A DNA stretch of 64,000 nucleotides, taken from Methanosphaera sp. BMS (GTDB lineage: Archaea > Methanobacteriota > Methanobacteria > Methanobacteriales > Methanobacteriaceae). Below are positions 8,954 to 59,711 of the stretch, one piece after another; within the stretch, counting starts at the first letter, position 1; each line of letters opens with the position of its first letter. A program made the translations under genes and the position numbers. The notes beneath the pieces were generated by a model. That model was not told the DNA's origin and searched no databases. It saw only the letters and a list, made by a program, of their open reading frames with translations. The DNA is taken from contig NZ_CP014213.1 in assembly GCF_003268005.1 (NCBI RefSeq), forward strand, positions 1,054,001 to 1,118,000, read 5' to 3'.

Positions 8954-8966
8954 GGGAGGTGATTGC

Positions 8967-9149
8967 ATAAACATCATAAAAGACACCCATGGCCAAGGTG
9001 CAGCTGAATACATCCTGCTGTTTGGAGGAGTAATAGTAATAGCACTAATAGCCCTGCAGATATACCAGGGATACTTCAACCAGTCAAGCTCATTCAGTGC
9101 AAAAGATGATGCCGAACAGATAAGAAACAACCTTACAAACAAAACATAA
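8967..9149 (+). CDS. Class III signal peptide (type IV pilin-like) small protein, apparent AUA start
   Basis: A 60-codon frame encodes INIIKDTHG, then QGAAEYILLFGG, a hydrophobic stretch, and a polar tail ending NNLTNKT. This is the archaeal class III prepilin pattern: a short charged leader, Gly, then Q-x-x-x-E and a hydrophobic helix, cut by an EppA-type peptidase. Such proteins form thin pili or membrane-associated filaments. The frame has no ATG, GTG or TTG between the upstream stop (8895-8897) and the pilin motif. GGAGGTGAT sits three bases before ATA at 8967, the spacing used by ATG genes in this window, so AUA initiation is the best reading. The product is short for a pilin. A second pilin-like gene follows 19 bases downstream. 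Confidence 0.72.
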   Translation: MNIIKDTHGQGAAEYILLFGGVIVIALIALQIYQGYFNQSSSFSAKDDAEQIRNNLTNKT

Positions 9150-9168: not shown

Positions 9169-9342
9169 ATGATAAATGACAATAAAGCACAGACAAGCGT
9201 AGAACTGATACTTATACTTGCCTGCATGATGGTAATAGTACTGATATGCGGAAATTTCATAACCGATACCTTGAATGACATAGTCCTGCATTTAAAAATA
9301 GTTATAAGAAACCTCAGAAATTCTATGATAAATAATATATGA
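9169..9342 (+). CDS. Second class III signal peptide (pilin-like) small protein
   Basis: A 57-residue protein starting at the ATG at 9169. The leader MINDNKA is followed by QTSVELILIL, matching the QxSxExxxL class III motif, and then a hydrophobic helix to about residue 27 and a short basic tail. It should be processed and membrane-inserted like the first gene, 19 bases upstream, with which it forms an operon. The ribosome site is weak (GAGAG about 11 bases upstream), which would suit translational coupling. No pilin peptidase or assembly ATPase lies in this window. Both proteins are too small for a full pilin head, so minor pilins or membrane-anchored accessory proteins are alternatives. Confidence 0.68.
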   Translation: MINDNKAQTSVELILILACMMVIVLICGNFITDTLNDIVLHLKIVIRNLRNSMINNI

Positions 9343-18392: not shown

Positions 18393-18585
18393 TATATATC
18401 ATAATGAATTAAATTTTAACATGATTCAATAAAAATAAATGATAATCATCAAAGCTAAGAAAATATTTTTTTATACATCCATTAAAAAAATTATAAAAAA
18501 TTAGTTATGTAGTGATTGAATGTTAAAATCTTATTTTTCATTATTAATTTGATTTAAATCAAAAGAAAAACTATGGTTGATATAA
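18393..18585 (+). promoter_or_regulatory. Promoter and long leader of adhesin 2
   Basis: TATATATCATAATGAA at 18393-18408 matches the box before adhesin 3, and the C of the box lies exactly 186 bases before the ATG in both genes. The leader also shares a stretch near 18460-18504 with adhesin 1 (TATTTTTTTATA, then CATTAAAAAAATTATAAAA). A 16-bp palindrome at 18546-18561 and the CTATGGTTGATA start-proximal motif complete the unit. Confidence 0.55.
18546..18561. promoter_or_regulatory. Perfect palindrome before adhesin 2
   Basis: TTTGATTTAAATCAAA is a perfect 16-bp palindrome. Its core TTGATTTAAATCAA ends 25 bases before the ATG, exactly as in adhesin 3. It could be a protein-binding operator or, in RNA, pair between two transcripts or within one leader. 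Confidence 0.45.
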
Positions 18586-21500
18586 ATGAATAAGAAACTA
18601 AAATATTCTTCGATATTACTAGTGTTTGCACTATTGTTAATACTTGCAAGCGGTTTAACTGCCGCAGCCGATATCGACAATGACAACACAGACATATCTG
18701 ATAATAGCATAACAGACACGGTTGGTGAGAGTGTTTCAAGCACGCCACAACCAACTGATAATAGCATGGAGACGAAAAGCATAAAAGAAGCAGATAATGA
18801 CGATACATATACTACAACTGCTTCAGAGGCTAAAGAATTAGCAAAAGATGAGAAAAACTTGAAAACAAAGATGAACACCGGAACATTAACCGCAACACCA
18901 GATAACGGTTATGTTGGTGATAATGTTACTTTATATTTAAAAGCTGGAACTAGTGATTTGATTCAAAGCCTATCATATAGTATCACAGTTAAATTTAATG
19001 ATAAGCAAGTCTATTCCGGCAGCGGAAAACCTTCTTCAAGGGGTAATGCATACCTGACTATCCCAGTACCAAACCTTGAACCGGGTGAATATACCGTTAC
19101 CATGAAATGGGGTTATTCAAACGATTTCATCGGAGCAACAGGAAGTACTCCATTCACAATTCTAAACGGTGCTGTTGACACAAAAATAACCGCAGTTGGA
19201 ACCATAAATGGAGAAATAGATAATACAATACTTCCTATTAACATTACAGACAGCAACGGCAATGCACTTGAGGGTTCACCTATGATAAATATTAAAGACG
19301 GAGATACAGCACTAGTAGAAAATTACACCGTCACAAATGGTGTGGCAAACGTATCCGTCCCAACAACAAGAACAGGTGACTATGACCTTACAGTGGAAGT
19401 AATTGAAACACCATTCTTCAACAGCTGCAACGCCACAATACCAGTTAGTATATCCAAAGCACAAACCACATTAACGGTAGATCAATATGATGAAGGCATC
19501 TACGAAGTAATAAATGCCCTAAACAATACTCTTCTTACAGGTACATTAGTACAGACAAGTAACAGCAAAGCTTTAGGCAACAAAGAAATAACTGTTACCG
19601 TTGAAGGCAGTGATTATACTGTTACTACTGATAATGAAGGTAAATTCATATACAAATATGATGTTACTCAACTGGCTGAAGGTTTATCAATATCCATTAA
19701 ATATAATGGTGATGAATTATACCAAGCTAGTCAGGAATATAGCGGTACCTTTGACATAGAAGCACTTGACACAACCATCATATTGGATGAAGACCCATTA
19801 TCAGAGGTCAATGAAACAACTACAATCTCAGGTAAATTAACCGATAACTACAACAACCCAATACCAAATACTGACGTAAAACTAGAAATAACAGGCGTAA
19901 ATGATATCGTTACAGTTACAACAGACTCAGAAGGAAAATTCAGTTATGATGTAATCTACAATGACGTACTGGAAGTAACAGTTGAAGCATCACTAGCCAA
20001 TGCAGTATTATATGAAGCAGAACCTGCTACCATGACATTCAATGTAGTGGTCGGTCCAAAAAGAACCAACCTTACAATTGAAACAGGAAGTGGAAGTGGA
20101 AACAACATCAATATCGTTGATGTAACCCCATACTTCAATGAAGTAATCACAAACGGTACACTCATAGACATATTCAAAGAACCAGTAGCCGATGCAACAA
20201 TAAAAATACTAATCAACAATGAAGACTACTCACAAACAACAGACTCAGAAGGAAAATTCACACTGGTATACAACGCAACACAAGGACTAACCACATACAA
20301 CATAAGCGTAGAATTTGAAGGAAATGATGCATATAAACCAGCAGGAGAAGTATACACCGGAACATTCAAAACAGAAGCATTCGACATAACAGTAACAGTC
20401 GATGAAAACTTCCCAGAAGAAATACTCATAGGAGATGAAATAACAATAACAGGTACTGCAACATTACAAAACCAGACCTTGAAAAACAATGAAATAGTTC
20501 TAACTATTGGTGGTACAAAATTCACAACCGCAACAGATGAGGAAGGTAAATACTCATACACCTACACAGTAGTAAAAAATGGTAACATTCCAGTTATAGC
20601 TAATGCAACATTTAGTAATGCTGACATTAAAGTAGGACAGACAAGCTTCTTTGTAGCAAAACCTGATGTAAATATCGACTTAGATGAAATTGCCGATACA
20701 AAAGTATACTCTGATGTTACATTAAACGGTAGAATCTACATAGCACAGAACGATACTCCTATAGAAGATAGTTTAATACTTAAAATCAACGGTAATTCAT
20801 ATGATTTATCCAGTGATGAGGATGGAAACTTTAACTATGTATTTACTCCATCACAAGCAGGCACATATGAGATATCAATATCATATGCTAATGTAAGGTA
20901 TAATGCCCATAACATTTCATTCCAAGTAACTGCAATACAAAGACAGGCACAACTTGTTAATGACAAATTAGCTGTAGCAGTTAAAGTAAATGACTTGTTT
21001 AGCATTACTGGTTTATTAACAGATGAGACAAACACTCCAGTATCCAATGCTGAGGTAATATTCATAATCAATAATGAAGAATATAGCAATGTTACCGATG
21101 AAAATGGTCGTTATGAATATAACTATCAAGCAACAAAAACTGGTGTTAATAATCAATATGAAGTAAAATATTCTGGTGATAATAATTACGTCTATGCTAA
21201 AAATTATGTCGGATCATTCTTTGACGTTGAAGCAGCAAAAGCAGATCTTACATTATATGTAACGGATACATCAGTAAACAAGAAGACCATCATAAGCGGT
21301 ACTGTTTCAGACAAAAATGAAAACTTCCTAAGTAATGTCAATCTAATAATTGACGTGAAAAATTCACAACTTCAAACAAAAACTGATGATACGGGAATGT
21401 TTAATGTAGAATACACTCCTACAAAAACAGGTCAGACTACCGTAACAGTAACTGTTAAAGATGACAATTACCTTGAAGAAAGTGAAACCACGACATTCAA

Positions 21501-56163: not shown

Positions 56164-56408
56164 TTTTACTTATTTTTATACCTTAGTTTACTTATTCTAA
56201 CCAATATTTACTTTAATTTTACTTAATTCCATAGCATATTTAATTATATTAAATATTATAAGTGTTTATTTTATTTAAGCTTATTTTAAGAATAAATTAT
56301 AGTTTAATTTATATATTACTTATTATATATTATTATTTAGTAAATTCACATTGTGTTTATATTTGTTTTTTATTATTGTTTTGTGTGGATTTGAGTAATA
56401 GTATTTTG

Positions 56409-57746
56409 ATGGTAATTATGTTTTTATGTAATCATTTGTTGGATAATTTAGGAAATTTTAATAATTATGTTTGTGAAAAATATATATTAGGAGAAAATAA
56501 TTTTGTTCGTAATCGTAAGTTGCCTCAGGAATGTATTATGAAATATGTTCCATGGAATCGTGGACGTACAACTGCATTAGAGGCCTTGTATTTTATGGAA
56601 GAATTTTGGGGTGAAATGGATATGGATGTGTCTAAACAGGCTATTTCTGAAAGAAGGATGATTATTGACCCACAGGCATATATTGATATGAATGGTGATT
56701 TATTAAAAAGAATATATACGGAACCCGAATTAAAAACATTTAAAGGTTATTATTTAGCAGCTCATGATGGTTCTATATTTGATTTGCCGAATTATCCTAC
56801 TATCCGTGAAGATTTTGGTATTGAAGATAATATTGATCATTCCAAACATACGGCTACTGCCAGAGTATCTACAATGGTTGATGTACTAAATGAATTTATT
56901 TTAAGTTCTACCATTACCAGCAGAAAGTCTGGTGAACCTGATCTTGCCATTGACCATTTAGAAGATGTTAAAGATAAGATTAACATTCAAAAAACAATAT
57001 CAATATGTGATAGAGGTTATGGTTCAAAAAAACTAATGTTAAAAATAATGCAACTAAATTCATATTTCGTAATACGACTAAAAAAAGACACATTCATAGA
57101 TCAAAGATATAAAATGACTACTGATGATGAAATAATTGAAGTACCACTAACTAAATCATTCATAAAAACAATACAAGACGAAAAATTAAGAAACTATGCA
57201 AACAAAGAACAAAAACTCAAAATAAGAATAATAAACATAAAATTACCAACCGGAGAAATAGAAACACTAGCAACCAATGTATTCGATAAAACAATGACAA
57301 TACAAGATTTTAAAGAAATATACAACAAAAGATGGACAATAGAAACCAACTACGACAAACTAAAAAACAAATTAGAAACAGAAAACTTCTCCGGCCGCAG
57401 AAAAATAATCATAGAACAAGACTTCTACTCAGACGTATATGTATTTAACATAGCAACAGTAATCAAACATGATGCAAATCAACAAATAACACGACAACCC
57501 CGAAAAAACAACAAACACCAATACAAAGAATACTCATCAAACTTCAACATAGCAGTAGGACTAGTAAAAAAAGAATTACTTAACTTACTAAATCCTGATG
57601 AAGAAAAACAACAACAAGCAATACAAAAAATATTCAAAATACTACAAAAAAACCTAATACCCATAAAAGAAGAAACCAAAACAACAACCCGAGAACCAGT
57701 AGACTACGGACACAAATTCAACGACAACAACAAAAGATCATTCTAA
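56409..57746 (+). CDS. IS4-family type DDE transposase
   Basis: A 445-residue transposase if the ATG at 56409 is used; the frame opens earlier, at 56262, but the extra 49 residues are purely hydrophobic and unlike a transposase. The DDE residues are visible as LAAHDGSIFDLPNYP near 117-131 (first Asp), TISICDRGYGSKKLM near 197-211 (second Asp), and the IS4 signature Y-x2-R-x3-E-x6-K in YNKRWTIETNYDKLKNK near 307-323 (Glu). The frame has no interruption, so the element could be active. Codon use is more AT-rich than in valS, as often seen for mobile genes. Confidence 0.88.
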   Translation: MVIMFLCNHLLDNLGNFNNYVCEKYILGENNFVRNRKLPQECIMKYVPWNRGRTTALEALYFMEEFWGEMDMDVSKQAISERRMIIDPQAYIDMNGDLLKRIYTEPELKTFKGYYLAAHDGSIFDLPNYPTIREDFGIEDNIDHSKHTATARVSTMVDVLNEFILSSTITSRKSGEPDLAIDHLEDVKDKINIQKTISICDRGYGSKKLMLKIMQLNSYFVIRLKKDTFIDQRYKMTTDDEIIEVPLTKSFIKTIQDEKLRNYANKEQKLKIRIINIKLPTGEIETLATNVFDKTMTIQDFKEIYNKRWTIETNYDKLKNKLETENFSGRRKIIIEQDFYSDVYVFNIATVIKHDANQQITRQPRKNNKHQYKEYSSNFNIAVGLVKKELLNLLNPDEEKQQQAIQKIFKILQKNLIPIKEETKTTTREPVDYGHKFNDNNKRSF

Positions 57747-58847: not shown

Positions 58848-59267
58848 TAAAATTCACCATGAACTGAATTAAATAATTATATCATCTATTATATTTTATA
58901 TTATTATATCTGTAAATTATTATTAATAATTATTTGAGAATTATAAATTCAAATATTAACGATATTGGAATATTTTTAAACCCGTTAGTTATTTATCATT
59001 TAAAAATAATCATATATTAACTATAAGTAAATCAGGTTATGCATGGATAATATTTTATAGTTAAACATCATTAGAGAATGCGAGATTCTTAGGTTCTTGA
59101 AATTTTATATTTCAAAGTACCTTCTATCCTCTTAGTTCCTAATCTTCATGAATTAATTTTTTTAATATTTATTAATAGTTATTCTTTAGGAATAAATATG
59201 TATAGTATAAACATATTAATAATAAAAATCACAAATAAATTATTAGAATATAAATGGGTGTGATATT
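58848..59267. other. Divergent intergenic region
   Basis: AT-rich spacer with the promoters of the leftward DUF6270 gene and the rightward anchored-protein gene, and the possible structured element at 59075-59160. No other gene seen. Confidence 0.4.
59075..59160 (+). other. Possible structured RNA element (nested hairpin)
   Basis: AGGT at 59091-59094 pairs with ACCT at 59119-59122, and TTGAAAT at 59097-59103 pairs with ATTTCAA at 59109-59115 around a TTTAT loop. Outside these, GAGATTCTTAGG (59082-59093) can pair partly with CCTAATCTTC (59138-59147). The segment is less AT-rich than its surroundings and has no open frame. It lies about 110 bases upstream of the AUA-start gene. It does not match an RNA family that I know. 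Confidence 0.3.
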
Positions 59268-59711
59268 ATAAATAAAAAATATTTTGGAATTATATTAATA
59301 GTTTTAATATTATTAATTTTAGGTGCATTTATTTTAACCAATAATTCACAAGAAAAAATTAAGATTAGAACTTCATCCATTACATTACCTGATGGATTTA
59401 TTGTTAGTAACTCTTCAGAATATGGTGTTACTATAAAAAATAACAGTACTGAAATTGGAATTTATGAACATTCTAAAAATAAAAAACTTAATGAACTTGA
59501 AAATAATATTAAAGATATAAATAAAGGCTATGAAATTAAAAACAATACTACAACCATTAATAATTATCCCGTGAAAACTTTTAAAATAATCAAAGGTAAT
59601 AAAACTTTTAAAACCCATTATCTTTTTGAAAAAAATAGTAAAAATTATGAGATTATTGTTAAGGGAGCGGGAAATAATTCTGTTTTAGAGAATATTATAT
59701 CTCAATTATAA
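59268..59711 (+). CDS. Membrane-anchored small protein with apparent AUA start
   Basis: A 147-codon frame begins INKKYFGIILIVLILLILGA, an N-terminal membrane anchor, followed by an extracytoplasmic domain with ITLPDGFIVSNSSEYGVTIK, a Lys/Asn-rich helical part and a final strand region (KNYEIIVKGAGNN). No ATG, GTG or TTG occurs in frame between the upstream stop (59244-59246) and the anchor, and the protein has no Met at all. GGTGTGAT lies three bases before ATA at 59268. The nth gene uses the same GGTGTGAT before its ATG, and the CDF gene has GGTGAT-ATT-ATG. AUA initiation is the simplest reading; a recent ATG-to-ATA mutation is the alternative. The domain resembles short stress or surface proteins common in Methanobacteriales but was not identified. 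Confidence 0.65.
   Translation: MNKKYFGIILIVLILLILGAFILTNNSQEKIKIRTSSITLPDGFIVSNSSEYGVTIKNNSTEIGIYEHSKNKKLNELENNIKDINKGYEIKNNTTTINNYPVKTFKIIKGNKTFKTHYLFEKNSKNYEIIVKGAGNNSVLENIISQL

Follow-up and report, generated by a model that had tools for sequence, protein, structure and literature searches.

A small membrane protein gene with a putative AUA start codon in Methanosphaera sp. BMS, and comparative support for near-cognate starts in its genus

An open frame without a canonical start

Archaeal genes are taken to start at AUG, GUG, or UUG, and gene finders enforce this set. The window analyzed here (64,000 nucleotides of contig NZ_CP014213.1 from Methanosphaera sp. BMS, positions 1,054,001 to 1,118,000) contains an open frame, hereafter the focal frame, in which ATG, GTG, and TTG are all absent before a GTG at codon 102 (Table 1). 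A start at this GTG would leave 46 residues and no membrane anchor; indeed, no canonical start is possible without losing conserved sequence. The codon-usage margin of the frame (0.54) is like that of real genes, homologues match it across its whole length, and its last 147 codons contain neither stops nor frameshifts, conserved positions being kept. The preliminary description had depicted it as a membrane anchor and a domain with no Met codon and no canonical start, and the sequence, the coding margin, and the homologues all bear this out, coordinates included. Around the frame the DNA is AT-rich and intergenic, and a transposase-like ORF (56262-57746) lies nearby.

Table 1. Features discussed in the text; positions are those of the window unless preceded by a locus handle.
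Feature	Position	Strand	Remarks
Focal open frame, 154 codons	59247-59711	+	Sequence and coordinates as first described
Mini-ORF, 5 codons (ATG GGT GTG ATA TTA TAA)	59254-59271	+	Stop overlaps the ATA start; candidate re-initiation
GGTGTGAT, Shine-Dalgarno (SD)-like element	59257-59264	+	GTGAT (59260-59264) in register with AGGAGGTGATCC
ATT codon, less likely alternative start	59265-59267	+	Duplex energy -5.7; one codon before the Met1 position of homologues
ATA, proposed start codon	59268-59270	+	Aligned with ATG/TTG of homologues; optimal SD spacing
Gene for a 147-residue protein with a single membrane pass and a putative PsbP/DcrB-like domain	59268-59711	+	Homologues and AF2/Foldseek
Membrane anchor, residues 3-25	59274-59342	+	Modeled as helix H3-25; every aligned homologue is hydrophobic here
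GTG, earliest canonical in-frame start	59571-59573	+	Unlikely: cuts the domain
GGGAGGTGAT, perfect SD of the pilin-like gene	8954-8963	+	Spacing 13
Class III signal peptide (pilin-like) gene, ATA start	8967-9149	+	Pfam PF04021; genus orthologues
QueE-like radical SAM gene, ATC start	L061:9191-9886 (G000:C1:2269191-2269883)		Source genome; genus and outgroup comparison
SHOCT-like gene	L061:18174-18882; L107 reverse-complement coordinates 18503-19136	L107 minus	ATA in both species
Homocitrate-synthase-like (HMGL) gene	L248:6849-8018 (G014)		ATC, preceded by AAGGGGGAGATTAT, is its sole plausible start

Geometry of the start site

SD spacing was calibrated on the long ORFs of the source genome and counted from the virtual 5' end of AGGAGGTGATCC; the start codons of this genome peak at 13-14 nt. 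The GTGAT motif gives a spacing of 13 to ATA 59268, which therefore has its SD at the optimal distance, whereas ATT 59265 can be reached only via the GGGTG register, at a spacing of 12. The duplex energy with the standard archaeal anti-SD, used in place of that of the source genome, is -7.2 kcal/mol for ATA and -5.7 for ATT, the median of canonical genes being -6.5. Because of this spacing and pairing, ATA 59268, and not ATT 59265, is the best-placed start codon. The SD of the focal gene is of average strength, and the conserved near-cognate cases reported below mostly have GGAGG or GGGGG.

The focal protein and its family

Homologues of the focal protein were retrieved from 12 of the 20 genus genomes, at about 30% identity (range ~20-40%), with four copies in the source genome; the other genera sampled yielded none, and the scan of named genome contigs did not reveal any close orthologue. 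The family is multicopy and fast-evolving. ATA 59268 aligns exactly with Met1 or with the TTG start of the genus homologues, and one of them (L025, in G006) has the leader gggttgtgat-ATT-ATG, that is, the focal leader followed by ATG. The remaining members have a canonical start at or near the aligned position, and AUA, AUU, or AUC does not start any homologue of the family, so that conservation of the focal start codon is not evident within the family. The preliminary description had proposed the AUA start and had counted an ATG at this position in the homologues against it. AUA is still the best reading of the frame; the ATG or TTG of the homologues shows a derived change from AUG to AUA, and the use of AUA is not thereby disproved.

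The protein consists of a membrane anchor and an alpha/beta domain. Its AF2 single-sequence model (pLDDT 82) had its best Foldseek matches, with modest TM-scores, in CyanoP (2lnj) and DcrB (6e8a); the top match reached E 4.7e-4 and TM 0.48/0.42 with this single-sequence model as the query. The Pfam search did not assign the protein to any family, and all NCBIfam matches were far below the cut-off. The predicted alpha/beta fold of the extracytoplasmic domain may resemble that of PsbP, CyanoP, and DcrB-like proteins, from which the focal protein differs in having no Pfam or meaningful NCBIfam match, a TM-score of only ~0.4-0.5, and no link to a photosystem.

Probable near-cognate starts in other genes of the genus

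A second AUA case in the window is the pilin-like gene of Table 1. At the aligned codon, its 17 orthologues, including that of the source genome, have ATA (6), ATT (4), ATG (5), GTG (1), or TTG (1), i.e., ATA or ATT in 10 out of 17, and six of them are devoid of canonical codons over the whole interval from the preceding stop to codon 15. Since five other species carry the same AUA as the source genome, sequencing error is ruled out for this codon by the comparison. A second short pilin-like frame (MINDNKAQTSVELILILACMMVIVL..., 9169-9342), with an ATG start, directly follows this gene.

Judging from the genus and outgroup alignments, the strongest case for near-cognate starts is QueE. The codon aligned with Met1 is ATT or ATC in 16 out of 20 genus species. 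Of the other four, one carries ACG there, two have ATT at the next codon, and the last, the basal G016, is the only one with an ATG, likewise at the next codon. In the 21 Methanobacteriaceae sampled from other genera, the aligned codon is invariably ATG. In 15 of the 16 genes with ATT or ATC, no canonical codon occurs anywhere between the preceding stop and codon 15, and two named QueE records concur (L259 with ATC, L260 with ATT). According to the QueE tree, the start codon changed in the ancestor of 19 species, which include near-identical ones and do not represent 19 independent cases.

Moreover, 1.24 Mb of the source genome (about 43% of its single contig of 2,868,093 bases) was compared with 1.2 Mb (68%) of the 1,767,403 bases of G014, a member of the same genus. 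By an objective rule, seven gene ends had no canonical start nearby, and in six of them the SD-anchored codon was AUA, AUU, or AUC, versus a background of 13% (binomial p about 3e-5); the six include QueE of both species and represent five gene families. Near-cognate starts would thus account for ~1% of genes (denominator about 330 genes per species). A wider set, in which a canonical codon was allowed nearby and which contains chance intragenic SD matches, was likewise enriched, with 19 out of 62 (p 3e-4).

Among the individual genes, a nitroreductase with Fer4 domains starts with ATT in the source genome (L077) and with ATG in G014, these being the two species compared; a GT2 glycosyltransferase has an ATT start at L090 and probably at L057; and the SHOCT-like gene has GGGGG followed by ATA in both species, its family name being the analyst's reading of a protein for which Pfam gave no match. 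Besides these and the HMGL gene of G014, two or three weaker cases were found. An ATA after AAGGAGG (L075:2919) was not counted, its SD lying inside an HsdS-like coding frame, and many apparent ORFs without a start were discarded by hand as antisense shadows, alignment overruns, or repeats. Several AUU and AUA starts across the genus stand behind GGGGG instead of GGAGG. Furthermore, a near-identical leader, tataggggaggtgaactaAGAGAGATTATG, precedes four ORFs of 243-464 codons (L033:9276, L045:6964, L065:15730, and L086:8154), which represent a repeated and probably mobile gene.

On these comparative grounds, conserved near-cognate starts in Methanosphaera are well supported. They do not emerge from raw counts: in an SD-anchored codon census, peaks were present for ATG and TTG, with no excess of ATA (15/587 at the optimal spacing versus 19/335, 12/372, and 27/565 at wrong spacings), and the near-cognate signal becomes visible only after filtering for coding and homology. 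The bulk preference for SD-spaced ATA that the preliminary description would lead one to expect is therefore not supported. The idea that AUA starts are a habit of this organism holds insofar as the genus has conserved near-cognate starts, but these include AUU and AUC and concern the small fraction of genes given above. The likeness of the focal leader to that of nth, on which the same description relied, did not prove to be a recurring signature either: GGTGTGAT followed after three or four bases by ATA occurs at eight sites genome-wide and by ATG at five, against six in all for the reversed-pattern control. Only the focal site, one of the eight with ATA, is start-like, opening a long frame without a canonical start, and the motif was rejected as a genome-wide signature.

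Alternative explanations for the focal gene

The alternative that best withstands these data is recent start loss, by which ATG would have become ATA in a paralogue that is no longer translated and whose decay is still to come. A multicopy, fast-evolving family that keeps ATG or TTG in all homologues, and a gene placed in AT-rich intergenic DNA near a transposase-like ORF, speak for this explanation. The 147 codons are nevertheless intact, with normal codon usage and with their conserved positions kept, the SD is retained, and the genus appears to start other genes at AUA, AUU, or AUC; on balance, we regard start loss as unlikely.

An assembly error at a true ATG is far less probable still. 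A single base separates the focal codon from the start of its homologues, but an error would explain neither the AUA of the pilin-like gene in five other species nor the genus-wide AUU/AUC of QueE, and these shared codons neither require nor suggest any special error process. The initial argument that two AUA cases in the window make sequencing error less likely holds for the pilin-like gene, where the shared AUA excludes an error; a wrong base at the focal codon keeps a very small chance.

Finally, a start at ATT 59265, a codon type used in the genus but here not aligned with Met1 and with the weaker SD fit (-5.7 vs -7.2), or re-initiation after the mini-ORF, whose stop does overlap the ATA in the sequence ATAA but which has no visible SD before it, can be considered very improbable.

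Proposed mechanism and comparison with known systems

The reading that we favor, with a probability of roughly 0.7, is that the focal ORF is a real gene, encoding a small, membrane-anchored, outward-facing PsbP-like protein, with a functional but weak AUA start. The other genus genes that apparently start at AUA, AUU, or AUC make this reading credible. In this gene, a paralogue within a Methanosphaera multigene family, AUG would have changed to AUA. The 16S tail would pair with the GTGAT/GGTG element and place the AUA in the P site, where the ordinary initiator tRNA (CAU) may accept it as a near-cognate despite the mismatch at the third position, presumably inserting Met as the first residue. 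In the 30 of 40 tRNA loci scanned, the initiator-type and the other Met tRNAs have a CAT anticodon, and neither a TAT-anticodon tRNA nor a special AUA-reading initiator was seen; the AUH codons are thus presumably decoded as third-base near-cognates by the usual Met-tRNAi, kept in place through SD pairing. Translation would proceed with reduced output, and the focal gene would join a small class of AUA/AUU/AUC-start genes of the genus.

In S. aureus, conserved AUA and AUU starts with an extended SD are known for infC (AUA), ccpN (AUA), cvfC1 (AUU), and citZ (AUA), with reporters at about 10-30% of AUG activity and with Ribo-Ret peaks (PMC13009471). Archaeal aIF1, in turn, has been reported to destabilise non-AUG complexes (PMC6237735), and together these data make a low output of the focal gene likely. 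The S. aureus and Methanosphaera starts share a third-base near-cognate of AUG, a properly spaced SD, and the fact of having been overlooked by annotation, and the cross-species conservation of ccpN and cvfC1 has a parallel in the near-cognate genes of Methanosphaera. The former are bacterial and backed by reporters and Ribo-Ret, whereas the latter are archaeal and known from sequence; the genes also differ, being in Methanosphaera QueE, the pilin-like gene, the nitroreductase, GT2, and the homocitrate-synthase-like gene. E. coli pcnB has an AUU start (Binns and Masters 2002, as cited in PMC13009471), and in pcnB and infC an inefficient third-base near-cognate start limits expression, as proposed here for the focal gene; these are, however, single bacterial genes, and infC is autoregulated via IF3, while archaea use aIF1 instead. 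A literature search, with most subscription journals outside its reach, turned up, among the papers it listed, no archaeal report of AUA, AUU, or AUC starts.

Implications for Methanosphaera

As had been suspected at the outset, gene finders limited to ATG, GTG, and TTG would overlook AUA-start genes, and annotations of Methanosphaera genomes probably omit or shorten genes such as the focal and pilin-like ones. More tentatively, Methanosphaera may have evolved a clade-wide class of genes that use AUA, AUU, or AUC as start codons and have strong SDs, often of the GGGGG type. In this scenario, the start of QueE would have changed from AUG to AUU/AUC a single time, early in the history of the genus, almost all descendants would have retained the weak start, and the focal gene would be a recent recruit. 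With core genes, QueE among them, that lack AUG, GUG, and UUG, the genus offers a natural test bed for aIF1 fidelity versus SD strength; if the clade-wide class is real, it would represent a selected, possibly regulated, low-efficiency mode of initiation in an archaeon.
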